29,346 bases of DNA, taken from a virus. The notes beneath the pieces are model-generated. The model did not search any database, was not told the origin of the DNA, and saw only the letters and a program-made list of their open reading frames with translations. Where the stretch lies: positions 1 through 29,346 of the IMG/VR virus record IMGVR_UViG_3300020469_000180, one strand, 5' to 3'. Below are positions 3,892 to 13,396 of the stretch, one piece after another. The position numbers were made by a program, and so were the translations under genes. How positions within the stretch are numbered: the first letter of the stretch is position 1; each line of letters begins with the position of its first letter.

Positions 3892-4230
3892 TTATGTCCT
3901 TGTAACACCTGGTAATATATTAATGATACCTTCAACTACTCTTGTTTTTTCACCCGTTGCTGTTTTATGAATAAGAACATCATACATATATCGCCCAGCT
4001 GTAAGGTTTCCAGTATTCTCTGCGGTCATAGTAAGTGTTATTTGACCAGTTCCGTTACTGGTAATCGTTGCAACAAAATCATTAGCCGTAGCAGAAAACT
4101 GAGATTTTCTAATTTGAGAGTTTGCAAGATAACCAAACAGGTTGATGTTTGCACCCGAATTGTCTTTTGCGTGTATGGTATTTGAAAAATTTGCGTATTG
4201 CTCTAGAAAGAGCTCAGTATAAGCAGCGAT
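3892..4230 (-). CDS. Small Ig-like virion protein with an apparent ATC start
   Basis: An open frame of 112 codons that a finder limited to ATG, GTG, TTG and CTG would miss. It lies directly before gene 13, where T4 has wac. The frame opens at a TAA at 4257-4255 and contains no ATG, GTG, TTG or CTG near its beginning. ATC at 4230 lies six bases after a good AGGAG. A single C-to-G change would give ATG followed by GCT, a typical start. The protein reads like the beta-sandwich module common in marine phages: F-L-E-Q-Y-A-N-F, N-L-F-G-Y-L-A-N-S-Q-I-R-K-S (29-42), A-G-R-Y-M-Y-D-V (78-85), and the terminal R-V-V-E-G-I-I-N-I-L-P-G-V-T-R (97-111). Function is unknown. The coding call is confident; the start codon is less so. 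Confidence 0.8.
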   Translation of the reverse strand: MAAYTELFLEQYANFSNTIHAKDNSGANINLFGYLANSQIRKSQFSATANDFVATITSNGTGQITLTMTAENTGNLTAGRYMYDVLIHKTATGEKTRVVEGIINILPGVTRT

Positions 4231-4242
4231 GTCGTTCTCCTG
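4228..4242 (-). promoter_or_regulatory. Shine-Dalgarno and ATC start codon of the Ig-like gene
   Basis: On the minus strand CAGGAG (4242-4237) is followed by AACGAC and then ATC (4230-4228). Spacing from AGGAG to ATC is six bases, ideal for initiation. It decides the start because no standard start codon exists in this frame between the upstream stop and the conserved N-terminal sequence. Confidence 0.6.
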
Positions 4243-4270
4243 TTTTTCTTCTATTTAGTATAAACAGGAG
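4237..4270 (-). promoter_or_regulatory. Hairpin hiding the ribosome binding site of the Ig-like gene
   Basis: A perfect 9-bp inverted repeat: on the minus strand CTCCTGTTT (4270-4262) and AAACAGGAG (4245-4237), separated by 16 bases. The 3' arm contains the whole Shine-Dalgarno AGGAG of the downstream gene. In transcripts reading through from the glycine-rich gene at 4280-5350 the site would be paired and translation reduced. The loop contains CTAAATA, a late-promoter-like box. A late transcript starting there would lack the 5' arm and be freely translated. T4 genes e and soc use this arrangement. The role here is inferred from layout only. Confidence 0.5.
4252..4259 (-). promoter_or_regulatory. 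Possible late promoter box in hairpin loop (ACTAAATA)
   Basis: The minus strand reads ACTAAATA, matching the T4 late consensus TATAAATA at six of eight bases. It lies 21 bases before the ATC start, similar to the 24 bases between the perfect late box at 8295-8302 and its gene. The position inside the loop of the inverted repeat strengthens the case, but the box alone is weak. Confidence 0.4.
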
Positions 4271-4279
4271 TTTTTAATT

Positions 4280-5350
4280 TTAAGTTATGAAATAACCAGT
4301 AGATGAAGTAATTTTTAAAATTATAACGCCTGATCCGCCAGCGCCACCTCCTGTGCTTCTATCAGGATTGTTTTCTCCAGATGCGCCTCCGCCTCCGCCT
4401 CCACCCCTATTAGTTAAACCTGATTGTGCAAAAAGAACAGCAGGATTAAATCCAGGAGGTGGCATTCCGCTGGCATTGCCTCCTCCGTATGGCCCACCAC
4501 CAATCCAAGTTCCTGATAAATTAGCTCGACCGGCATAAGGACCACCTCCGCCTCCTCCAGAATAAGCTACATTTGATCCAGAAATTGAAAAGTGTAAACC
4601 TATACCACCTTTTGACCCAGTATCACCGGTAGCCTGAGCATCTCCGCCTTCTCCGCCTGCACCACCACCTCCACCACCCGAAAAATTAGGACTACCGGTC
4701 CCATTGCCTCCATCACTTCCTTGAGTTGTATTAGAAGATATCCCACCAACACCACCTGGTTGACCCGGACCAAATGGTCCGCAAGCTCCTCCACCAGAAC
4801 CTCCAGCACCACCGGGTTCATCTTGTGGAGCGGTTGTCACAGTACCTCCACCTCTTCCACCACCAGTAGAAGATACTACGTTAGCAGAAGGACTTGATCT
4901 AGAAATATGAGAATCTGAACCAGGTGTTGAGAGATTAGCTCCTGGATTTGGCGCACCGCTAAATCCTGCAGCTACAGATTGAACACCGCCACCACCCACA
5001 TTGGCTGTATGTTTTACTGCTGGAAAAGTCGCTATGCCAAATGAAAGACCACCAGCACCTCCACCACCGCCACCTGATCTTGCAGGTCGACCTCCAGCAC
5101 CAGATCCACCACCAGCTATTACTAGATACTCACCAATTACAGCTTCATCAGGAGTAAAATCTGCTGAAGAATTAAAAGTAATAACTGTTGAGTCACCAAC
5201 TTGAGTTTGGGGAGCTGTAGTAGTAATAGAAGCTCCAGCTTGACTCTTACCAAAAGATAAACCTAAAGGAAAAGCAAAACCTGGAGGCCTTGTGGTCTCT
5301 ATTCTTTGTTTCTCTTTAGCAACTTGGTTTCTAGTAAAATTTACGCCCAT
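4280..5350 (-). CDS. Glycine-rich adhesin-like tail fibre protein (copy D)
   Basis: 356-residue probable receptor-binding protein. The N-terminus carries R-P-P-G-F-A-F-P-L-G-L (21-31), the motif shared by all four glycine-rich proteins here and probably an attachment segment. A F-N-S-S-A-D-F-T-P and G-E-Y-L-V-I-A-G-G-G-S-G region then opens a long run of Gly-rich blocks to about residue 340, closing with G-S-G-V-I-I-L-K. Such blocks resemble the polyglycine-II adhesin fold of T-even gp38-type tips and the 'glycine-rich domain' family. It is closest to the protein at 8316-9356, sharing N-V-G-G-G-G, S-H-I-S-R-S-S-P-S-A-N-V-V and G-L-H-F-S-I-S-G-S-N blocks. The C-terminus differs from that paralogue and instead resembles the next gene (G-x-F-I-[ST]). 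No Shine-Dalgarno sequence is evident. Confidence 0.85.
   Translation of the reverse strand: MGVNFTRNQVAKEKQRIETTRPPGFAFPLGLSFGKSQAGASITTTAPQTQVGDSTVITFNSSADFTPDEAVIGEYLVIAGGGSGAGGRPARSGGGGGGAGGLSFGIATFPAVKHTANVGGGGVQSVAAGFSGAPNPGANLSTPGSDSHISRSSPSANVVSSTGGGRGGGTVTTAPQDEPGGAGGSGGGACGPFGPGQPGGVGGISSNTTQGSDGGNGTGSPNFSGGGGGGAGGEGGDAQATGDTGSKGGIGLHFSISGSNVAYSGGGGGGPYAGRANLSGTWIGGGPYGGGNASGMPPPGFNPAVLFAQSGLTNRGGGGGGGASGENNPDRSTGGGAGGSGVIILKITSSTGYFIT
4881..4913. repeat. 33-bp block identical to 8917-8949
   Basis: An exact 33-base match to 8917-8949 inside two glycine-rich genes, encoding the S-H-I-S-R-S-S-P-S-A-N block. Identity of this length in genes that differ elsewhere points to recent duplication or recombination. 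Confidence 0.9.
5037..5084. repeat. 48-bp block matching 9064-9111 at 47 positions
   Basis: This block aligns without gaps to 9064-9111 with one mismatch (position 5070 against 9097). It encodes the A-R-S-G-x-G-G-G-G-A-G-G-L-S-F-G region of both glycine-rich paralogues. Confidence 0.9.
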
Positions 5351-5351
5351 A

Positions 5352-6683
5352 TTAACTTATGAAAAATCCTTCCGCTAAACCTGCATCTGTTTTATATTTA
5401 ATTACAACTATTCCTGAACCGCCTGCTTTTGGCCCTACTGGTGAAGGATTACCTGCGCCTGTACCACCAACTGTTCCGGTACCCCCTCTACCTCCACCGC
5501 CTGTGTTTGCTAAACCAAGGCCAGTAAGAGATGTAGATCCAGGTTCTGATGTAAAAGTTGAATTAGCAGATGGAACTGCAAAAGGTTCTCCACCTCCGCC
5601 ACCTGCACCTCCTTTTCCGACAAGTTCAGATGGTCCATAACCACCAGCACCTCCACCGCCGCCGAAAAATCCGTTAGTCTGTGTTGCTATTCCTATACCA
5701 AAACCTCCTGGAGTTCCAACTCCTGCTTCAGCAAATCCTGAAAAATTTAATCCTGTTCCGCCACTATGACCTTGCGAAGTTGTAGCAACTGGAGCTTTCC
5801 CTCCTATTTCATTAGATACAGCTGTTGATGGTTGACCTGGAACTGAGCCAGCTGTACCGGGTACTCGGCCTCCTCCTGCTTGTCCTGCTCCTCCACCTCC
5901 ACCAGCTACTCCAGGTTGTTGTGTAGATGAATTCCATCCATATGGATTCAACGGATTATCGTGTGTTTGTCCACCTAAACCTCCAGGATTTCCATTATTT
6001 TCTACACCTGAAATTCCTGGATTTGTGACCGGTTGAAAACCAAATCCAACTGCTGAGCCGTGTCTTCCTGGTCCTGAGTTCATTGTGGCTCCACCACCAG
6101 AACCTCCATCCATTCCTTTTCCAAAACCACCATCACCTCCACCAAAAGATGTTGCCCATCCAGCACCACCTCCACCAAACATAGATGTAACTGCTACACT
6201 AGTTGATGTATCTGTGAAAGAAGAGTTTGAGCCAGCACCTCCACCGCCTTGTGTTCCCCCATATGGGCCACCTCCAGCTGATCTATCTGGTGCTAAAGTT
6301 CCACCTGAACCTACGGTTACAGTATAATCTCTATTATCTACAACAGGGAAATTTGAAGCAAAAACGATACCGCCTCCGCCGCCTCCGCCACCTAAAAAAC
6401 TCCCACCACCTCCACCTCCTGCTACGACCAATAAATCTATTTCGCCTGTAAATGATGGAGTAAAAGTTCCTGATCCGCTTGGGTTTGCAAAAATATGAAA
6501 TGTGTTACCACCTGCAACTGGCCCAGATGGGCCAGCTAAACATCTTTGCAAACCACCTTCTGTGTCAGCAGCAGAATTTCCTGTGGGGCCTAATGCACCA
6601 AAACTTAGACCAATAGGAAATTTAAAGCCTTCGGGTCTAGTTCTTTGTAATTGAATTTTGTTAAATTTGAAATCTACTGACAT
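5352..6683 (-). CDS. Glycine-rich adhesin-like tail fibre protein (copy C, longest)
   Basis: 443 residues, the longest of the four glycine-rich paralogues. The N-terminus contains R-P-E-G-F-K-F-P-I-G-L (16-26). Next come F-A-N-P-S-G-S-G-T-F-T-P and I-D-L-L-V-V-A-G-G-G-G-G, the usual lead-in to the Gly-rich domain, then numerous GGGGG blocks spaced by variable segments to about residue 420. It ends G-S-G-I-V-V-I-K-Y and G-F-F-I-S. Gly-rich blocks with variable loops between them suit a polyglycine-II adhesin in which the loops touch the receptor; this is inference from known gp38-type tips. The gene is separated from the gene at 4280-5350 by one base. The apparent proline-rich reading frames on the plus strand are shadows of the glycine codons. 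Confidence 0.85.
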   Translation of the reverse strand: MSVDFKFNKIQLQRTRPEGFKFPIGLSFGALGPTGNSAADTEGGLQRCLAGPSGPVAGGNTFHIFANPSGSGTFTPSFTGEIDLLVVAGGGGGGSFLGGGGGGGGIVFASNFPVVDNRDYTVTVGSGGTLAPDRSAGGGPYGGTQGGGGAGSNSSFTDTSTSVAVTSMFGGGGAGWATSFGGGDGGFGKGMDGGSGGGATMNSGPGRHGSAVGFGFQPVTNPGISGVENNGNPGGLGGQTHDNPLNPYGWNSSTQQPGVAGGGGGAGQAGGGRVPGTAGSVPGQPSTAVSNEIGGKAPVATTSQGHSGGTGLNFSGFAEAGVGTPGGFGIGIATQTNGFFGGGGGAGGYGPSELVGKGGAGGGGGEPFAVPSANSTFTSEPGSTSLTGLGLANTGGGGRGGTGTVGGTGAGNPSPVGPKAGGSGIVVIKYKTDAGLAEGFFIS

Positions 6684-6689
6684 GGTTCA

Positions 6690-7034
6690 TTACGAAATTT
6701 CAGCGCCATAGGCATTAAAAGTAATACCCGTTTTATTTGTATTAGCTGCAAGAATTACACTAGAGTTCATACAAACTGCTCCTGTAATTGTTACAAGTTC
6801 TCTTGCCGGTACAATACCACCTTTAATGATAAAATGTTTATCAGCCAAAGTTTGAGCGATTGGTCTGACAAAGAAACTATATGAAGCATTTGCATCTGTA
6901 TGGTTGTGAACTGTTAATGTTCCTATAACTGTATTAACAGGTGAACCGCCAATATCTGCTGGGCTTACATAAACATTTGTTGTTGTATTAGCCGCAGGAG
7001 AAATTTGACCTAAAGTGCTGTATAGTGATGGCAT
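6690..7034 (-). CDS. Small beta-rich fibre-associated protein (114 aa)
   Basis: A 114-residue member of a four-gene paralogous family here. It has the family pattern: L-G-Q at 8-10, a V-Y-V-S-P strand (21-25), H-N-H-T-D-A-N-A-S-Y-S (43-53), D-K-H-F-I-I-K-G-G (65-73), a short P-A-R-E-L stretch, M-N-S-S (89-92) and a C-terminal F-N-A-Y-G-A-E-I-S (106-114). Alternating hydrophobic strands suggest a small beta sandwich with no signal peptide or membrane segment. CGGAAAAA precedes the ATG and may serve as ribosome binding site. Placed between another family member and a glycine-rich adhesin, it may be a fibre collar or adaptor, but that is only inferred from position. Confidence 0.75.
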   Translation of the reverse strand: MPSLYSTLGQISPAANTTTNVYVSPADIGGSPVNTVIGTLTVHNHTDANASYSFFVRPIAQTLADKHFIIKGGIVPARELVTITGAVCMNSSVILAANTNKTGITFNAYGAEIS

Positions 7035-7044
7035 TATTTTTCCG

Positions 7045-7431
7045 TTATGTTATTGCGACACCAAATGCACTTACTGATACGTTAGAAAAAGTTTCACCTG
7101 TTCTAACCGCATTATTCACAGCAAGTGTGCTTTTAGCATTCATTGTTAAATTTAAATTAAGTATAAGTGATTCAGCTCGTTCTATTTTTTGATCTTTTAA
7201 AATAAAGTGACTATTTCCAACTTCCCCAATAGGATTGGTACCGAGTGTATGAGGGTAAAGTGCAACTGAAACATTACCATTTGTAGCACTTTGATTACAA
7301 AGATAAACTGAATTGATAATTGTATTAGAACCTACGGGACAAGAATATACATTTGAAAGTACATTAACTGTATTAGAGGCCCCACTTTGTCCCAAATATA
7401 TTTGTCCTAATATTCCATATGATTGTGCCAT
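7045..7431 (-). CDS. Small beta-rich fibre-associated protein (128 aa)
   Basis: Paralogue of the neighbours at 6690-7034 and 10370-10699. It shows I-L-G-Q (7-10), V-Y-S-C-P-V-G (28-34), V-Y-L-C-N-Q-S (42-48), N-S-H-F-I-L-K-D (73-80), M-N-A-K (97-100) and S-A-F-G-V-A-I-T at the C-terminus (121-128). It is slightly longer than the others because of extra residues near 12-25. AGGATA stands directly before the ATG, and the ATG overlaps the stop of the fibre-stem gene by one base (TAATG), so the two are coupled. Function unknown; probably a virion component working with the adjacent fibre proteins. Confidence 0.75.
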   Translation of the reverse strand: MAQSYGILGQIYLGQSGASNTVNVLSNVYSCPVGSNTIINSVYLCNQSATNGNVSVALYPHTLGTNPIGEVGNSHFILKDQKIERAESLILNLNLTMNAKSTLAVNNAVRTGETFSNVSVSAFGVAIT

Positions 7432-7856
7432 TATCCTACTCCTAATAATAAAAATGGATTAAGACCACCACCATCACCAATTGATACAGCCACGTTAGCT
7501 ACTCTTGTTATTTGACCTTTGTCATTTACTGAAATTGAAGGTATAGCACTTGCACCACCATAACTTAAACCACCCGGTGGTGTTGCAACATTAGCTAATG
7601 AATCACTTAATATTGTGCCACTCGCTATGTGGCTCGAATTGATTGTATTTTGTGTTATTGAGTTAGCATGAACTGTGCCGATTGCTATGTGGCTCGAATT
7701 AATTGTATTACCTTTTATTCTATCAGCCGTAAGAGTTCCCTCTGCCACATTATTTGGTAGAATAGTATTAGCTTTAATCGTGCCTGCTGAAACAGTATTC
7801 GCACCGATAACAATATCGACACCGGATCCCACTAAGAAAACTCTTGATAATCCCAT
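7431..7856 (-). CDS. Fibre-stem protein with decapeptide-like repeats (141 aa)
   Basis: A small fibre protein. Residues 18-90 are built of roughly ten-residue repeats of the form N-T-I-x-x-x-x-I-x-x-G-T, with N-T-I-N-S-S-H-I-A occurring twice exactly (50-58 and 70-78). Repeats like these form trimeric beta stems in phage fibres. Residues 97-127 carry Y-G-G-A-S-A-I-P-S-I-S-V-N-D-K-G-Q-I, a module common in phage tail fibres and shared here with the proteins at 10710-11228 and 11694-12272. The C-terminus is Gly and Leu rich. AGGACTAATAA lies just before the ATG. It probably carries the following small beta proteins and glycine-rich adhesins, by analogy with the cassette starting at 11228. Confidence 0.75.
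   Translation of the reverse strand: MGLSRVFLVGSGVDIVIGANTVSAGTIKANTILPNNVAEGTLTADRIKGNTINSSHIAIGTVHANSITQNTINSSHIASGTILSDSLANVATPPGGLSYGGASAIPSISVNDKGQITRVANVAVSIGDGGGLNPFLLLGVG
7624..7709 (-). repeat. 60-bp-period direct repeat in the fibre-stem gene
   Basis: The 26-base cores 7624-7649 and 7684-7709 match at 25 positions and are offset by exactly 60 bases, which is 20 codons. They encode the two N-T-I-N-S-S-H-I-A repeats of the stem, which look like a recent internal duplication of repeat units. Confidence 0.85.
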
Positions 7857-7859
7857 TTA

Positions 7860-8270
7860 TTAGTCCTCTGGTTCGTACTCTGGAGGTGGATCACCTTCAG
7901 GTTTTGGGTTATTCTTTTTAACTTCTTCTATTCTTTTAAACCACTCCGATTTTTTCAAATCTTCACCGCTATTTACAGCGTGCCATAACATATCTAACTG
8001 TTCAAACCCATCAGGGTATTCGTGACAACGATTATAAGCATATTGATAATATTCTGCAACTGCTTTTTGTCTTTCAAATTCATTCATAATCTGTTCTTTA
8101 GTTGGTGGTTTCTTACCATCAGGATCATCCCATTTGGGGAAAGAAAACCTACCACCGCCAGCATTCATTTCAAATTTTGCATTTGGTCTTAGAGCTTTGA
8201 TTGCTGTATCAATACCATAACCAAGACCAGATTGTCCCGTAAAACTTTTTGCTATATCATTCACGTTCAT
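7860..8270 (-). CDS. Probable tail fibre/tail assembly chaperone (136 aa)
   Basis: 136 residues with a globular, charged second half: R-C-H-E-Y-P-D-G-F-E-Q-L-D-M-L-W-H (about 81-97), followed by a W-x-x-x-I-E-E-V-K-K-N-N-P-K-P stretch and an acidic, proline-rich end. The E-Y-P-x-x-x-x-Q-L-D-x-L-W element with a terminal K-x-x-x-P-K-P is common in small phage proteins annotated as tail assembly chaperones (XkdW-like), often encoded beside tail fibres. That fits its place between fibre genes, but the activity is inferred. It has the best control region in the window: a perfect TATAAATA late box and a strong AAGGAGGAA eight bases before the ATG. Confidence 0.65.
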   Translation of the reverse strand: MNVNDIAKSFTGQSGLGYGIDTAIKALRPNAKFEMNAGGGRFSFPKWDDPDGKKPPTKEQIMNEFERQKAVAEYYQYAYNRCHEYPDGFEQLDMLWHAVNSGEDLKKSEWFKRIEEVKKNNPKPEGDPPPEYEPED

Positions 8271-8294
8271 TTTAAATATTCCTCCTTAATTCTC

Positions 8295-8302
8295 TATTTA
8301 TA
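8295..8302 (-). promoter_or_regulatory. Late promoter box TATAAATA
   Basis: An exact match to the T4 late promoter consensus on the minus strand, in a 45-base gap between two genes. It lies 24 bases before the ATG of the chaperone-like gene, with AAGGAGGAA between them. A second, weaker CATAAATA lies upstream at the end of the preceding gene (8312-8319). It probably drives the second fibre cassette and the genes beyond. Confidence 0.75.
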
Positions 8303-8315
8303 AATCTTTTTGTAT

Positions 8316-9356
8316 TTATGACACAGGTCCACCTATTGCACCACCAATTGAATAGAATAATTCATCTCCTCCTTGTTCCATAACATATCTTATAATTACA
8401 ACACCTGAACCACCTGCACCACCTCCTGATGAAGGTGCACCATTTGTTCCAGATTGACCTGCACCTCCGCCGCCACCTCTATTTGCTGTGCCAGCGCCTC
8501 CATAATCTGTATAAGAATCAGATGTAGAGGCATTTCCTCCTCCGTATGGGCCACCGCCAACCCAAGTTCCTGCACCTGGAGCTCGACCGCCATAAGGACC
8601 ACCTCCGCCTCCTCCAGCATAACCTGTATTTGAACCAGAGATTGAAAAGTGTAAACCTATTCCAGCTTTTCCACCAGCAGTTCCAGTAGTTGTAGCTGCT
8701 ACACCAGCACCACCGGCGCCTCCGCCTCCACCACCCTGATAATTTGGAGATCCGCCTCCATTACCTCCAGCACTTCCTTGAGTTGAATTAGATGTTGCAC
8801 CTCCTGATCTTCCTGGTCCTTGGCCTCCTCCACCAGAACCTCCAGCACCACCATTTTCATCAGCAACACCTGTGTGTACTGAACCACCATAACCACCGCC
8901 TAGGGAGGCGACTACATTAGCAGAAGGACTTGATCTAGAAATATGAGAAGTTGAACCTGGACTTGAATCTGTTGCAGCTGGGCTAGGACCGCCATCACCT
9001 TTAGATTGAGCTCCACCACCACCTACATTACAAGTATGTTTTACAGCAGGAAATGGTGCGACACCAAATGAAAGACCACCAGCACCTCCACCACCGGCAC
9101 CTGATCTTGCACCTAAACCTGAACCACCGGAACCACCACCACCTATTACTAGATACTCACCAACTATTTCCGCACTAGGAGTAAAATCTGCTGAAGAAGT
9201 GAATGTGTGAACAGCGTTTGTCCCATCTACTGTTTGTGTGCCACCAGTTGTGTTTGTAGCTACATTAACAGATCCCGATTGAGCTATCGTATCTAACCCT
9301 ATTGGATAAGCATAACCTTCAGGTCGAAAAGTAAAAGTGGAAATAGTTCCTCTCAT
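8316..9356 (-). CDS. Glycine-rich adhesin-like tail fibre protein (copy B)
   Basis: 346-residue paralogue of the other three glycine-rich proteins. The N-terminal motif R-P-E-G-Y-A-Y-P-I-G-L occupies residues 11-21, with a very short leader before it. Then come A-V-H-T-F-T-S-S-A-D-F-T-P and G-E-Y-L-V-I-G-G-G-G-S-G-G, Gly-rich blocks to about residue 315, and G-S-G-V-V-I-I-R-Y-V-M-E-Q with an I-G-G-A-x-G-G-P end. The end matches the upstream neighbour at 9356-10357, whereas the middle matches the gene at 4280-5350 down to near-identical DNA blocks. It is therefore mosaic between the two cassettes. The ATG overlaps the upstream stop by one base, with no clear Shine-Dalgarno sequence. Receptor binding is inferred from family resemblance. 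Confidence 0.85.
   Translation of the reverse strand: MRGTISTFTFRPEGYAYPIGLDTIAQSGSVNVATNTTGGTQTVDGTNAVHTFTSSADFTPSAEIVGEYLVIGGGGSGGSGLGARSGAGGGGAGGLSFGVAPFPAVKHTCNVGGGGAQSKGDGGPSPAATDSSPGSTSHISRSSPSANVVASLGGGYGGSVHTGVADENGGAGGSGGGGQGPGRSGGATSNSTQGSAGGNGGGSPNYQGGGGGGAGGAGVAATTTGTAGGKAGIGLHFSISGSNTGYAGGGGGGPYGGRAPGAGTWVGGGPYGGGNASTSDSYTDYGGAGTANRGGGGGAGQSGTNGAPSSGGGAGGSGVVIIRYVMEQGGDELFYSIGGAIGGPVS
8917..8949. repeat. 33-bp block identical to 4881-4913
   Basis: Second copy of the exact 33-base match shared by the glycine-rich genes at 4280-5350 and 8316-9356. Confidence 0.9.
9064..9111. repeat. 48-bp block matching 5037-5084 at 47 positions
   Basis: Second copy of the block at 5037-5084, in the glycine-rich gene at 8316-9356. 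Only one base differs. Confidence 0.9.
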
Positions 9357-10357
9357 TAAGCTGGTCCTCCATTAGCACCACCAATATCATAGGTTAATGT
9401 TGTTGCTGTTTGCTCCATAACATAAGTGATCTGAGCAAAACCTGACCCGCCAGCAGTACCACTTCTTCCCCCTCCTGCATTTGAAACGTGACCTCCGCCA
9501 CCACCTCCTCCGCCACGATTGGCTGTACCTACAACTGTGGCAGCCGCACGATCACCACCAGCCGCACCGCCTCCATTACCGCCAGCCCCAGCAGGACTAT
9601 TACCTGGATGTGTACCGCCACCGCCTCCGCCACCGTAATATACTGGTGAACCGGTAAAATTTATAGCTACACCGACACCGCCTGCACCTCCTGCTCCTGG
9701 AGTAACGCCAGCTGCTCCTGCTGCACCTGCACCTCCTCCACCACCGGCGCTTAAAGGCGCCCCAGCTCCTCCAGGATAACCTTGAGTGCCAGCTGGTGAT
9801 AAAGAAGTAGGACCAGCTACCTTGCATTGTGCAGGTATACCCAATCCTCCTCCACCGCCAGAACCACCAGCATTACCAGGAGTTGATAAATTACCAGTAC
9901 CACCCCCACCACCTTCAGCAGTTAAGTTTAATGAAGGTGTATTTGAATTGATTGTTACTGTGGTATTTGTGCCGTTTGCACCTTTTGTTCCCTGTACTGT
10001 TGAACCGGCACCGGCACTTCCTAGTGTAACAATTAAATCAGCTCCTGGTATTACTGGGTAACCACTACCAAGAACTAAACCTCCAGCACCTCCACCTCCG
10101 CCAGCTTGTCCGCCGCCACCTCCACCAGCAACAAACATATAAGAAAAAGAATATGTAATAGATGAATCATTTGAAAAAGTACCTGATGAAGTATATGTGT
10201 GAACTGCATTTGAACCAACTGTGGTTTGAACACCGCCAGATGAATCTGCGGCTACATTAGCAGTTCCTCCACTCACACTTTTTGTGGTCAGACCTATTGG
10301 ATATTGATAGCCTTCAGGTCTGCCTACTCTTTTAGTTGAAATTGAGAATACAGCCAT
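9356..10357 (-). CDS. Glycine-rich adhesin-like tail fibre protein (copy A)
   Basis: 333 residues. R-P-E-G-Y-Q-Y-P-I-G-L at 13-23 is the shared anchor-like motif, followed by A-V-H-T-Y-T-S-S-G-T-F-S and a Y-M-F-V-A-G-G-G-G lead-in. Gly-rich blocks run from about 77 to 308. The protein closes with G-F-A-Q-I-T-Y-V-M-E-Q and D-I-G-G-A-N-G-G-P-A, an ending shared only with the next gene. AGGTTAATACT precedes the ATG as a modest ribosome binding site. It follows a small beta protein and a fibre-stem gene, the same order as in the second cassette. The long antisense frames opposite it arise from GGN codons and are not genes. Confidence 0.85.
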   Translation of the reverse strand: MAVFSISTKRVGRPEGYQYPIGLTTKSVSGGTANVAADSSGGVQTTVGSNAVHTYTSSGTFSNDSSITYSFSYMFVAGGGGGGQAGGGGGAGGLVLGSGYPVIPGADLIVTLGSAGAGSTVQGTKGANGTNTTVTINSNTPSLNLTAEGGGGGTGNLSTPGNAGGSGGGGGLGIPAQCKVAGPTSLSPAGTQGYPGGAGAPLSAGGGGGAGAAGAAGVTPGAGGAGGVGVAINFTGSPVYYGGGGGGGTHPGNSPAGAGGNGGGAAGGDRAAATVVGTANRGGGGGGGGHVSNAGGGRSGTAGGSGFAQITYVMEQTATTLTYDIGGANGGPA

Positions 10358-10369
10358 AGTATTAACCTA

Positions 10370-10699
10370 TTAAGAAATTTCAGAACCAAATGCACTAAAT
10401 GATACACCTAAAGTTGAAGTGTTTACTCTTATTTTATCAGCAGCATTCATGGCTATACCTAAGGTAACTCCTATTGAATCAGCTTGTGGCACAGCGCCAC
10501 CTCTTATGATGAAATGTGCATCATTAGCTGTTGCACCATCTGGCGCTATTGCTATTGAATACGAGGCATTTACGGCCGTTTGATTACAAACTGCTATTGT
10601 AGATACCACACACTCAGTTGAACTCGGTACCGTGTATAAGTCTGCAAGAGTATTTGCACCTGGTCTTAATTGTCCTAATACTTTATAATTGGTTGCCAT
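10370..10699 (-). CDS. Small beta-rich fibre-associated protein (109 aa)
   Basis: A 109-residue member of the small beta family: V-L-G-Q-L-R-P-G-A-N-T (7-17), L-Y-T-V-P (21-25), I-A-V-C-N-Q-T (35-41), N-A-S-Y-S-I (44-49), D-A-H-F-I-I-R-G-G (60-68), M-N-A-A (84-87) and F-S-A-F-G-S-E-I-S (101-109). The closest relative in the window is the 114-residue protein at 6690-7034. TTAGGAAATAAAAA precedes the ATG. The gene sits between a fibre stem and a glycine-rich adhesin. A structural role in the fibre is likely, but no function has been recognised. Confidence 0.75.
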   Translation of the reverse strand: MATNYKVLGQLRPGANTLADLYTVPSSTECVVSTIAVCNQTAVNASYSIAIAPDGATANDAHFIIRGGAVPQADSIGVTLGIAMNAADKIRVNTSTLGVSFSAFGSEIS

Positions 10700-10709
10700 T
10701 TTTTATTTC

Positions 10710-11228
10710 CTAATTTGTTCCTGTGAAAAATAATCCATTAATTCCTGCCTCTGGTATGTCTACTGTTACATTTGAAGCTAATGTTAATTGACCTGAAGCG
10801 TCTACTTTTAGAGTAGGTATTTGACTTGCTGAGCCATAACTTCCTGCTGTAACACCTGTATTTGCTATTTTATTAGGAGAAACTGTATTTGCAAGAATAG
10901 CTGCATCAGTAACAGCATCTGTAGCTAATTTAGCAGCTGTTATTGTGCCATCTGCAACTTCAACAATTGAACTTTCAGCGCCTTGAGCAATATGCACTAC
11001 TTCAATATTTTTTGTTCCTGCTACTGGTATGAATCCGGCATTAAATGTTAAAGTTGTGCCACTTAATGTGTAAGCGGCTACATTCTGTCTAGCGCCTGAA
11101 ACAAATACAAGTAAAGACGATTTACTTGCTGGTGCTACCGTTAAAGTAAAATCATCTTCTGACCCATCGCCATCAAATGAGTCAACAATAAAGTTTGCAG
11201 TTCTTGGTTCGTTACCTATGTAAGCCAA
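10710..11228 (-). CDS. Fibre-stem protein (172 aa, TTG start)
   Basis: 172 residues. The N-terminus M-A-Y-I-G-N-E-P and F-D-G-D-G-S-x-D-D-F-T-L (18-29) belongs to a module seen at the start of many phage fibre proteins and probably serves for attachment to the virion. A-D-G-T-I-T-A-A-K-L-A-T-D-A-V-T-D-A-A-I-L (92-112) are stem-like repeats. V-T-A-G-S-Y-G-S-A-S-Q-I-P (126-138) followed by V-D-A-S-G-Q-L is the classic phage fibre module. The start codon is TTG, placed seven bases after AAAGGATAAAAA. No ATG upstream fits, and M-A-Y-I-G matches the expected N-terminus, so TTG is well supported. It opens the first fibre cassette. Confidence 0.8.
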   Translation of the reverse strand: MAYIGNEPRTANFIVDSFDGDGSEDDFTLTVAPASKSSLLVFVSGARQNVAAYTLSGTTLTFNAGFIPVAGTKNIEVVHIAQGAESSIVEVADGTITAAKLATDAVTDAAILANTVSPNKIANTGVTAGSYGSASQIPTLKVDASGQLTLASNVTVDIPEAGINGLFFTGTN

Positions 11229-11238
11229 TTTTTATCCT

Positions 11239-11682
11239 TTAATTGTATATTTTAATCCAGCCGGTCTGATTATTTGCTTTATAAGCATTTTCATCCCACT
11301 GGTAGGACTCTGAATTTGCTACATTAGCCTCAGAGGGCATTGCATATGGTGGATTCCATTGAAAAGTAGTATTACTAATTTTCCAACTGTCCCATTGATT
11401 ATTTGATCTTGGAGATACAAAAGCATCTTTACCTGTGCCATTTACATCAGCATGGTATTCATAACCTATACCGGCATAATTACCTCTTAACGGCGTACCA
11501 CCATCTGGTAAATATTCACCATTAGCTGCTACTGCATAATGCACGTTCTGTGATGTATTATATGATGTTTGTATCCATCTATTAGCAGGACCAACAGAAC
11601 CAGAATTTATAAAATCTTGTTCAGCTACTATAACACGAATGACTGTGTTTGTATCTGGATTCACCTCTGCAAAATGTGACAT
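11239..11682 (-). CDS. Unassigned marine-phage structural protein (147 aa)
   Basis: 147 residues starting M-S-H-F-A-E-V, with R-V-I-V-A-E-Q-D-F-I-N-S-G (16-28), R-W-I-Q-T-S-Y-N-T (35-43), P-L-R-G-N-Y-A-G-I-G-Y (63-73), a D-A-F-V-S-P-R segment, and a C-terminal W-N-P-P-Y-A-M-P region. I recognise this as a protein type widespread in marine phage genomes near tail fibre genes, with no defined function. The pattern of W, Y and short loops suggests a compact beta domain. AGGAGAAGTAAAG gives a good ribosome binding site. It lies between two fibre-stem genes, so a fibre or fibre-accessory role is the reasonable guess. Confidence 0.7.
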   Translation of the reverse strand: MSHFAEVNPDTNTVIRVIVAEQDFINSGSVGPANRWIQTSYNTSQNVHYAVAANGEYLPDGGTPLRGNYAGIGYEYHADVNGTGKDAFVSPRSNNQWDSWKISNTTFQWNPPYAMPSEANVANSESYQWDENAYKANNQTGWIKIYN

Positions 11683-11693
11683 CTTTACTTCTC

Positions 11694-12272
11694 CTATGTT
11701 TTAATAAAAATCAAGTTATTAGATTCTTTATATAATCGGCCAGCAACTACTGAACCACCTCCGGTAGGTATGCCTGAAAAATCTAAATCTTTTACATTTA
11801 AATTTGCTACGTTACTTATTCTACCTTTTGTACTCACTTCAATTGTTCCGATAACTAAATTAGCACCTGCAAAATTGCCAAATTTTCCAGATTCTGTTAA
11901 AACATTATAAGAAAAAGTAGTTGATAATTTATCATCTGTAATTGCACCTGTGTCAACTTTGTTTGTGGTAACTGAAAAATCATCAGGAGCTATTGTTGCA
12001 AATCTTTGTTTTTCTCTGTTTACAATAACAATATTTGTTTGACCAGCTGGTGGCGCCTCTATAAAATTAATTGTACTATTTGCTGGCGTTACAACAAATG
12101 CTTGATTGGCACCAAATGTTTGGTGTACGTTAGCAACCCACACATCTAAATCATTACCATCATTAACTGCTAAACCTAATCCGAAATCTTTTGTAGAGCC
12201 ATCACCATTATATCTAACTATACTCTTCTGGAATAGTTCGTTAGCAGGTGAGCGACCAATATATGAACCCAT
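11694..12272 (-). CDS. Fibre-stem protein (192 aa)
   Basis: 192 residues with the same three-part plan as the protein at 10710-11228. The N-terminal Y-I-G-R-S-P-A and Y-N-G-D-G-S-T-K-D-F-G-L (21-32) form the presumed attachment module, with beta strands to about residue 86. A short stem follows with G-A-I-T-D-D-K-L (109-116). Then comes F-A-G-A-N-L-V-I-G-T-I-E-V-S-T-K-G-R-I (134-152) and a C-terminal G-G-G-S-V-V-A-G-R-L-Y region. It has no glycine-rich adhesin directly after it, unlike the other two stems. It begins one base after the stop of the 105-residue gene. Probably a structural fibre or fibre-adaptor protein. Confidence 0.75.
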   Translation of the reverse strand: MGSYIGRSPANELFQKSIVRYNGDGSTKDFGLGLAVNDGNDLDVWVANVHQTFGANQAFVVTPANSTINFIEAPPAGQTNIVIVNREKQRFATIAPDDFSVTTNKVDTGAITDDKLSTTFSYNVLTESGKFGNFAGANLVIGTIEVSTKGRISNVANLNVKDLDFSGIPTGGGSVVAGRLYKESNNLIFIKT

Positions 12273-12273
12273 A

Positions 12274-12591
12274 TTATGTTATCTCCAAAGCCGATAAAAT
12301 TACATCACAATTACCACTACAAGATACAGATAATGTGTCAGTAGCTTCCATTACAACTTTCTGGTCGTTTCCTATGGGAACTAGAGCACCGCCTGTTGGT
12401 ATAGTTGCATCTTTAATCATATGAAAATTAGTGCCGCCAATATTCATATGTATATTTGCGAGAACTGAACTTGCAGTTTTATTTGCAATTGTCATACCAA
12501 TAAGGGTAGCTGAAGTGGAAGCCGGCGTAGTGTAGACAACCGTATTTGATGATACGTTTGATGCTGGATAATTTTTAAAAGTATTTGCCAT
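12274..12591 (-). CDS. Small beta-rich protein (105 aa), divergent family member
   Basis: 105 residues, weakly related to the three other small beta proteins. It has V-V-Y-T-T-P (18-23), I-A-N-K-T-A-S-S (35-42), N-F-H-M-I-K-D (55-61), an A-T-I-P-T-G-G stretch, and a hydrophobic C-terminus L-S-A-L-E-I-T in place of the F-G-x-E-I-S ending. It has a C-S-G-N-C pair (91-95) the others lack. AAGGAAAAA stands before the ATG, after an AATAAATA element. Similarity to the paralogues is limited to spacing and a few motifs, so common ancestry is likely but not certain. Function unknown. Confidence 0.65.
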   Translation of the reverse strand: MANTFKNYPASNVSSNTVVYTTPASTSATLIGMTIANKTASSVLANIHMNIGGTNFHMIKDATIPTGGALVPIGNDQKVVMEATDTLSVSCSGNCDVILSALEIT

Positions 12592-12614: not shown

Positions 12615-12622
12615 CCCCTTAT

Positions 12623-13396
12623 TTAGCTTAAAGCAATCGCAAGTGATAGTGCATCATCTGTTATTGAATTAGCTTTTGCCTCGATTATTCTTGATCTATT
12701 ACCAATGTATATTCTACCTACCATAGCCGAGGCATGAGAGGTACATTGATAGTAATATGTTGTACCATCTCCAGCTGTGTTTGCTGGAACTTTCCAATAT
12801 AATATTCCATCTTTTTTTGCTTGAGCAGCACCAGATTTCAAAATTGTAAGACCACCACTTGGAGTCGCATTAACATGAGTTAATCCTACACTATAATATG
12901 TTGATGTATCACCTACATTACCACTTGCATTTGTCGTACGAATTACAAAAGGATGTACACCATTTAATTTTTGTAAATCAAAAGCGTATGTTTGTCCAGC
13001 TTGTAAATCAAGATCAGGATTATCTCCCGGCGCTTGATCAAATATGTAAGCTGAAGATCCTTTATTGTGAACACTAAATCTTGTGGCTACAGCACCTGAC
13101 GTATTGGCTGAAAATTGATAGAGACCATTAACGTCTAAACCTACATTAGCATTTGAACTCGCTCCACCACCTTGTATTACAACATTACCATTCGTTGTGA
13201 TATTATCAAATTCACCTACTGATAGATTTAAATTACCTGTTACATCTAAACTACCAGCAATTTTAACATCACTACTTAAAGTAAAAGTACCACCTGTTCC
13301 TTCTGTTAAAGCATTAAGGGTGGTTACAGTTTCATCTGTTGTAGCAACGTGTTGCTGAAATGTATTAGATGTTGATACTCTATTAATAATTGCCAT
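12623..13396 (-). CDS. Virion protein with a cupredoxin-like (plastocyanin-type) domain
   Basis: 257 residues in three parts. Residues 35-90 are fibre-like, with I-A-G-S-L-D-V-T-G-N-L (46-56). About 105-232 form a cupredoxin-like domain: L-Q-A-G-Q-T-Y-A-F-D-L (131-141), N-G-V-H-P-F-V-I (145-152), and Y-Y-Y-Q-C-T-S-H-A-S-A-M-V-G (214-227). This offers all four residues of a type 1 copper site: H148, C218, H221 and M225. Plastocyanin has C-x2-H-x4-M-V-G; here the last spacing is three. The C-terminus carries an S-I-T-D-D-A-L stem-like motif. Similar domains occur in marine phage structural proteins; copper binding and function are unproven. It could instead be a copper-free fold used for adhesion. 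No signal peptide, so not exported like true plastocyanin. Confidence 0.75.
   Translation of the reverse strand: MAIINRVSTSNTFQQHVATTDETVTTLNALTEGTGGTFTLSSDVKIAGSLDVTGNLNLSVGEFDNITTNGNVVIQGGGASSNANVGLDVNGLYQFSANTSGAVATRFSVHNKGSSAYIFDQAPGDNPDLDLQAGQTYAFDLQKLNGVHPFVIRTTNASGNVGDTSTYYSVGLTHVNATPSGGLTILKSGAAQAKKDGILYWKVPANTAGDGTTYYYQCTSHASAMVGRIYIGNRSRIIEAKANSITDDALSLAIALS

Follow-up and report, generated by a model that had tools for sequence, protein, structure and literature searches.

In a 29-kb fragment of an uncultured marine T4-like virus (IMG/VR record IMGVR_UViG_3300020469_000180, positions 1 to 29,346; hereafter the window), in which the analysed genes of note all lie on the minus strand, we find a block holding two cassettes, each made of a fibre stem (S), one or two small beta proteins (B) and a pair of glycine-rich proteins (G). 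We propose that this locus probably builds short composite fibres, with the stem as anchor, B as socket, a short N-terminal leader of each Gly-rich protein as its address tag, and the TNF-like/Gly-rich (TG) body behind the leader as an exchangeable tip. Direct support comes from the paralogy and repetition of the module, the TG model of a Gly-rich protein (G2) and the jelly-roll model of a B protein, the association of leaders with B, the exchange of bodies, selection on the leaders and fusions of stem and B genes. In the direction of transcription the block reads B0, S0, Y147, S1, B1, G1, G2, X136, S2, B2, B3, G3, G4, with all genes co-oriented and tightly packed:

12274..12591, minus: B0, 105 aa, small beta protein; a separate, deep-branching lineage of B proteins
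11694..12272, minus: S0, 192 aa, stem with T7-fibre-like N-terminal domain
11239..11682, minus: Y147, small protein of the phrog_7759 family, often closing such cassettes; sits between S0 and S1
10710..11228, minus: S1, 172 aa, TTG start; stem of cassette 1
10370..10699, minus: B1, 109 aa; single B of cassette 1, putative socket
9356..10357, minus: G1, 333 aa; first Gly-rich, putatively TG-type adhesin of cassette 1
10289..10357, minus: putative G1 leader (tag), residues 1–23, MAVFSISTKRVG-RPEGYQYPIGL
8316..9356, minus: G2, 346 aa; second Gly-rich TG adhesin (by model) of cassette 1
9294..9356, minus: putative G2 leader (tag), residues 1–21, MRGTISTFTF-RPEGYAYPIGL
8370..9224, minus: predicted G2 TNF-like/Gly-rich body, residues 45–329; matches the Pam3 fibre, the tail tip of Bxb1 and the TG domains of ALK and LTK
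7860..8270, minus: X136, conserved small protein with a YPDGFEQLDMLWHA motif, encoded between cassettes 1 and 2
7431..7856, minus: S2, 141 aa; short stem of cassette 2
7045..7431, minus: B2, 128 aa; first member of the B pair of cassette 2
6690..7034, minus: B3, 114 aa; second member of the B pair, immediately 5' of the adhesins
5352..6683, minus: G3, 443 aa; first Gly-rich adhesin of cassette 2
6606..6683, minus: putative G3 leader (tag), residues 1–26
4280..5350, minus: G4, 356 aa; second Gly-rich adhesin of cassette 2
5258..5350, minus: putative G4 leader (tag), residues 1–31

An earlier note on this DNA had named the open reading frames (ORFs) of the stem, beta and Gly-rich sets, and all are present on the minus strand at these coordinates. 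Its list of cassette genes holds for the genes named; it left out X136 (7860–8270) and Y147 (11239–11682), which lie inside the block. Its claim that each role is filled by paralogues was borne out. Relationships were detected by blastp among the B proteins (B1–B3 3e-26, B1–B2 5e-18, B0–B1 merely 0.03), the stems (S1–S0 4e-10, S1–S2 6e-9) and the Gly-rich proteins (G2–G4 2e-52, G1–G3 6e-10, values inflated by composition). Profile comparison with hhalign gave 93.8% (1.8e-7) for B0–B1, 73.5% for B0 with B2/B3 and 96–99.9% for the stem pairs (S0–S2 96.1%, S1–S2 98%), compared with 0.1–0.4% for unrelated control pairs. G1–G4 all carry the non-Gly N-terminal motif RPxGFxFPxGL and match Gly-rich models of Pfam and PHROG. 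By these sequence comparisons, far above chance and controls, S0/S1/S2, B0–B3 and G1–G4 are one homologous family each, and the third, partial set (stem S0 and beta B0) is paralogous to the stems and betas of the cassettes by profile comparison. The earlier note had named two findings that could refute it, unrelated stems or small betas and unlinked positions in related phages; the proteins are related by profile and the genes are linked at the same locus, so the claim is not refuted.

Structural modelling identifies the Gly-rich proteins as TG-type adhesins. The model of G2, built from 47 relatives (predicted local distance difference test, pLDDT, 83.5; predicted template modelling score 0.82), has a TNF-like beta-sandwich merging into a Gly-rich lattice. 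Its residues 45–329 match the Pam3 tail fibre 7ypx_A with Z 15.2 (root-mean-square deviation 2.7, 186 residues); the Bxb1 tail tip scores Z 14.4 and the ALK/LTK TG domains about 8, with the next unrelated row at 4.0. By sequence, the G profile matches the Pam3 fibre at 6.5e-5. The TG domain of the Pam3 tail fibre recognises the host (PMC9608196), and the TG-domain fold of the G2 model agrees with the earlier assignment of the Gly-rich proteins as receptor-binding in nature. A single-sequence tblastn search of phage records with G2 found nothing, most likely because Gly-rich stretches are hidden by the low-complexity filter, and profiles were used instead. Single-sequence searches of the PDB with B1, G2 and S1 returned chance matches only.

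Leaders are 10–31 residues long; G proteins of the T4-like group start with 6–30 variable residues followed by the motif RPxGFxFPxGL. Residues 1–30 of G2 have a pLDDT of 51–55 and no helix, and the leader is predicted to be disordered in the G2 monomer model, as expected of a docking peptide. In locus L084, which has 90% DNA identity to the window, the G1 leader is identical, divergence starts directly behind the motif, and the body that follows resembles G2. A near-identical G4 leader stands on a different body in L005, and L170 and L175 have a common leader on unrelated bodies. We compared leaders (first 14 residues) and bodies with B in 71 non-redundant B–G pairs from 51 genomes. Leader similarity followed B similarity (Mantel r 0.53, and 0.52 as partial r with the body taken into account); for bodies the values were 0.12 and 0.06. 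In quartets, which are pairs of genomes each holding at least two cassettes and control for genome relatedness, the matched leaders were more alike in 71/73 (71:2) and the matched bodies in 39/73 (39:34, chance level), although the quartets overlap in genomes and are not 73 independent trials. A better guide is the within-genome swap test, in which the observed value was reached by 0/500 adhesin swaps for the leader and 148/500 for the body. The leader–B signal is confined to residues 1–14 in other phages and 1–30 in the T4-like group. To judge from these comparisons, G bodies have been exchanged between slots, cassettes and phages, and the leader follows the preceding B. A cassette-specific C-terminal tail, seen by eye in G1–G4, was rejected, as the final 10 residues show no link with B (36:37). 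A diversity-generating retroelement was likewise rejected as the source of variation, PF00078 (reverse transcriptase) being absent from four related contigs (66–136 kb, completeness not known) and from the window ORFs.

S0 and S1 hold the similarity to T7-type fibre N-terminal domains. S1 consists of this domain, a C-terminal TAGxYGxxxxIP...VDxxGR domain and a hydrophobic tail. The stem profile matched the fibre of cyanophage P-SCSP1u (5e-8), the tail fibre 8e4g (0.0024) and, weakly, the T7 gp17 N-terminal domain (0.018); Pfam PF03906 was sub-threshold in the stems (0.002–0.007). What S2 has in common with S0 and S1 is limited to the C-terminal 45–70 residues. Within S2 we found a direct repeat (window 7614–7719; ~46 nt, 60-nt spacing, 83% identical, residues INSSHIA.GT...), a 20-residue internal repeat at the protein level; the L188 stem is 21 residues shorter, and the repeat gives stem-length variation. 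Stem and B genes are fused in nine loci (L035, L181, L185, L199, L201, L204, L206, L207 and L208), not all of them independent, as some are close relatives. In these loci the stem is joined to the first B of the pair, the counterpart of B2, and the second B always stands behind. Because of these fusions we assign stem and B to one fibre, as had been suggested earlier.

The structure predicted for B1 from an alignment of 65 relatives is a jelly-roll of eight strands (pLDDT 91). In the fold search no family of structures is clearly ahead of the rest: jelly-rolls of nucleoplasmins, cement proteins, turrets and endospore appendages all score Z 9.5–10.3, among them a cement protein from a phage (7dou, Z 10.1) and the turret of the archaeal virus HFTV1 (8qpg, Z 9.7). 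The fold is clearly similar to predicted domains in cyanophage virion and tail-fibre-like proteins, including those of P-SSM2 and S-CAM1, and two PHROG tail-fibre families match 34/65 and 29/65 of the B members.

The window has a T4-like tail gene order, with gp5, gp25, gp6 and gp8-type baseplate genes followed by a gene for an 1840-aa protein (phrog_358) that matches VrlC of pelagiphage HTVC008M at 8e-25. Behind it come two small genes, Z70 and W257, then the cassette block, gp13, gp14, the sheath stabiliser and the small terminase; 3' of G4, one short gene precedes gp13. The block is the host recognition cluster interval, with the VrlC-like gene on one side and the neck genes gp13/gp14 on the other. 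According to PMC7029224, a hypervariable island of that name sits between VrlC and the neck genes in pelagimyophages and cyanomyophages. This fits better than the place of T4 genes 9–12 and wac to which the block had been assigned. No cultured phage was matched by blastn with the 8-kb block.

Scans of IMG/VR gave more than 200 loci. In T4-like relatives the same interval holds 1–4 units of a stem, 1–2 B and 1–3 G, often closed by a Y147-type gene, which is a copy-number change of the kind that the earlier note had proposed looking for at this locus. There is one unit with three G in L009, plus a remnant stem behind X136, and one with two giant G in L008; L170, L185 and L186 have three units and L175 four, and cassette 2 of the window is present intact in L188. 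A Gly-rich gene directly follows B in 66/99 B genes with an identified downstream gene (drawn from 112 B matches, near-copies included), against a background of 185/2388 (7.7%) among ORFs of at least 100 aa. In relatives B0 has a fixed place beside the VrlC-like/W257 genes, and the S0 counterparts have B and G genes directly behind them; in the window S0 is separated from those genes. The pair of B and G also occurs outside T4-like phages, for instance as B, G, Y in Pontimonas phage phiPsal1, which lacks X136, and as B, G, G, Y in ct2KA10. We also noted giant Gly-rich proteins of 922–1165 aa where adhesins of ~330 aa usually sit (L008, 3215–6154 and 6170–8938; L180, 3562–7059). In phiPsal1 (L189), a gene for a 298-aa Gly-rich adhesin directly behind the B homologue (8349–9245) is absent from the GenBank annotation, which shows shorter hypothetical ORFs there instead.

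The two cassettes were earlier suggested to be a tandem duplication of one module. In a tree of 37 B proteins, grouping follows cassette type, not genome: B0 forms a clade (100/100), as do the first-of-pair B proteins (97/93), and the second-of-pair and single B proteins fall into a few clades. B1 of the window is nearest to L084, L009 and L008, and B2/B3 are nearest to L188, then L170 and L175. Since the B proteins cluster by cassette type across phages, the cassettes are ancient paralogues that diverged long before this genome, and the tree does not support a recent tandem duplication in this lineage, which was rejected. The G2 and G4 bodies are ~63% identical, with different leaders. The tree of G bodies mixes cassette types and places G2, from cassette 1, as sister to a group of G4, from cassette 2, and the counterpart of G4 in L188 (Shimodaira–Hasegawa-like approximate likelihood ratio test 99). 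By this tree, the part recently shared by the two cassettes is the adhesin body of G2/G4 only.

In the mechanism we propose, the stem would attach to the virion via its T7-fibre-like N-terminal domain or a shorter version of it, and the B jelly-roll, single or as a B–B pair, would form a socket at the distal stem end. There, between one and three Gly-rich adhesins would dock by the short N-terminal leader ending in RPxGFxFPxGL, with the TG body projecting outward and its loops binding the host. The leader would be an address tag for its own socket, so that the TG body could move among slots, cassettes and phages while the fibre still assembles. The window virus would show as many as four different adhesins, each cassette contributing two. 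As the earlier note suggested, a virion may have two different tips or a widened host range. More tentatively, the system may work as plug and socket, with a limited set of tags, each of which fits one defined site of a cassette-specific jelly-roll socket, and a fixed number of freely exchangeable adhesins per fibre (2–3 per cassette, at least two cassettes per virion). X136 may be a fibre-assembly chaperone, possibly Tfa-like, by its position and the general chaperone need of TG fibres; its profile (A4) had no PDB match, no Pfam or NCBIfam family was found, and unnamed PHROGs were the sole matches.

Hitchhiking is the main rival to docking, because the first leader adjoins B. Breakpoints just inside the adhesin gene would leave the leader linked to the upstream B without any docking role. 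First-slot leaders do begin a few bases from the B stop codon, the divergence of L084 starts directly after the leader, and part of the leader–B association could therefore be linkage. As the whole explanation, linkage is improbable. Leaders in second and third slots remain tag-specific despite swapped bodies between them and B: those in the second slot, which lie over 900 bases away from B and have exchanged bodies on both sides, were slot-specific in 15/15 cases (bodies 9/15). Tag identity is also kept when gene order changes. The tags SILF/AILF, GIEF and SAIK occur once each in L178, L185 and L181, in two gene orders; strictly positional tags were rejected, since L178 and L185 carry the same three in different order. 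Same-tag leaders differ at a proportion of 0.46 of synonymous and 0.14 of non-synonymous sites (pS and pN), so that the leader peptide is under protein-level purifying selection. The stem–B fusions, which link stem and B within a single fibre, also count against linkage as the full account. It is highly unlikely that B is instead a capsid or neck decoration protein. This reading draws on the cement and turret neighbours of the B model, with which nucleoplasmin jelly-rolls score equally, and it sits poorly with the fusion of B to stems, the adhesin gene next after B in most phages, the PHROG tail-fibre matches and the presence of the B fold within proteins of P-SSM2 and S-CAM1 that are annotated as tail-fibre-like.

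The two cassettes might also encode alternative rather than joint fibres, for example for different virion sites (baseplate, neck) or different hosts. They have different ancient B types and different stems, and the TATAAATA motif 5' of X136 could be a late promoter of cassette 2's own, although the count of such motifs is not above chance. We consider this rather unlikely, as no switch, invertase or reverse transcriptase was found (PF00078 being absent from the four related contigs) and the genes are all co-oriented and tightly packed. Besides the overlap among quartets and the adjacency of first leader and B, other points weigh against composite fibres. S2, the stem of cassette 2, is without the T7-fibre-like N-terminal anchor domain, and the cultured T4-like phages Melnitz, Mosig and HTVC008M hold the parts in looser order, without the exact unit. 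Docking of the leader, whether to B or to a different cassette-specific partner, is something we infer from the statistical association and the S–B fusions. That the proteins are part of the virion, that both cassettes are displayed at once and that the receptor is bound would be further such steps.

Composite fibres of this kind differ in several respects from known systems. The tail fibre gp24 of myocyanophage Pam3 (PMC9608196; PDB 7ypx, 7yfw) is the best structural and sequence match of G and shares the TNF-like and Gly-rich distal domain with a variable tip. It is, however, one chain with its own alpha-helical docking domain, whereas here docking would be split into stem and B and several adhesins would share a stem, each with a short leader only; the G2 model has no alpha-helical domain of the Pam3 type at its N-terminus for docking to the baseplate. 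S16 gp38 (6F45) was not among the matches listed for the G2 model, which does not exclude a likeness to gp38. The gp38 of T2-type phages and S16, as presented in PMC12892980 (which cites Dunne et al. 2018), is similarly a separate Gly-rich adhesin with hypervariable loops at the fibre tip, but carries a beta-helix domain and is mounted on gp37, whereas the body here is modelled as TNF-like/Gly-rich. In SP6, K1-5 and Klebsiella phages a conserved N-terminal anchor or short peptides (hepta-, undecapeptides) dock exchangeable receptor-binding bodies onto an anchor or adaptor (PMC6872550), and a short conserved N-terminal peptide with an exchangeable body is also found here. The bodies in those branched receptor-binding protein systems are mostly depolymerases and branching is by T4gp10-like domains; here we find a small jelly-roll as candidate socket, cassette- and slot-specific tag sets, and a unit repeated as a cassette. 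The pelagimyophage host recognition cluster shares this block's position, flanked by the VrlC-like gene and by neck genes; in the available part of PMC7029224 the island consists of variable tail-fibre genes, and the repeated S–B–G unit and leader tags are not described. Relative to the available text of PMC7029224, PMC9608196 and PMC6872550, new features are the repeated stem–socket–adhesin unit, the TG fibre split into separate proteins and the statistical tag-to-socket specificity. A conserved front end with an exchanged tip is known in cultured phages; here we describe a repeated cassette with measurable tag-to-socket specificity in uncultured aquatic phages. If true, this would explain how host-binding proteins change fast in abundant marine T4-like phages while fibre assembly is kept, and sequence alone would give the number of distinct adhesins per virion and the socket of each.

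At the flanks of the cassettes, TATAAATA at 8295–8302 just 5' of X136 and CTAAATA at 12620–12626 just 5' of B0 could be candidate late promoters for the two cassettes; across the window, the number of T4-type late promoter motifs does not exceed chance expectation. Between G4 and gp13 lies a conserved 112-codon gene (3892–4230, minus) with an apparent ATC start, in the frame ATC-GCT-GCT-TAT behind CAGGAG. A plus-strand ORF at 3967–4185 overlaps it and was rejected as spurious. In close relatives an extra 957-aa protein, absent from the window, is encoded between this gene and gp13 (L006, 637–3510; L188, 4636–7509). The start codon at the same site is ATC in L005, L006, L007, L008 and L009, GTG in L093 and TTG in L035. 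Upstream, an inverted repeat (CTCCTGTTT ... AAACAGGAG, 4237–4270) has the Shine-Dalgarno sequence of the ATC-start gene as its right arm and a T4-late-promoter-like CTAAATA in its loop. The same layout recurs in relatives, and the repeat could couple transcription and translation control.

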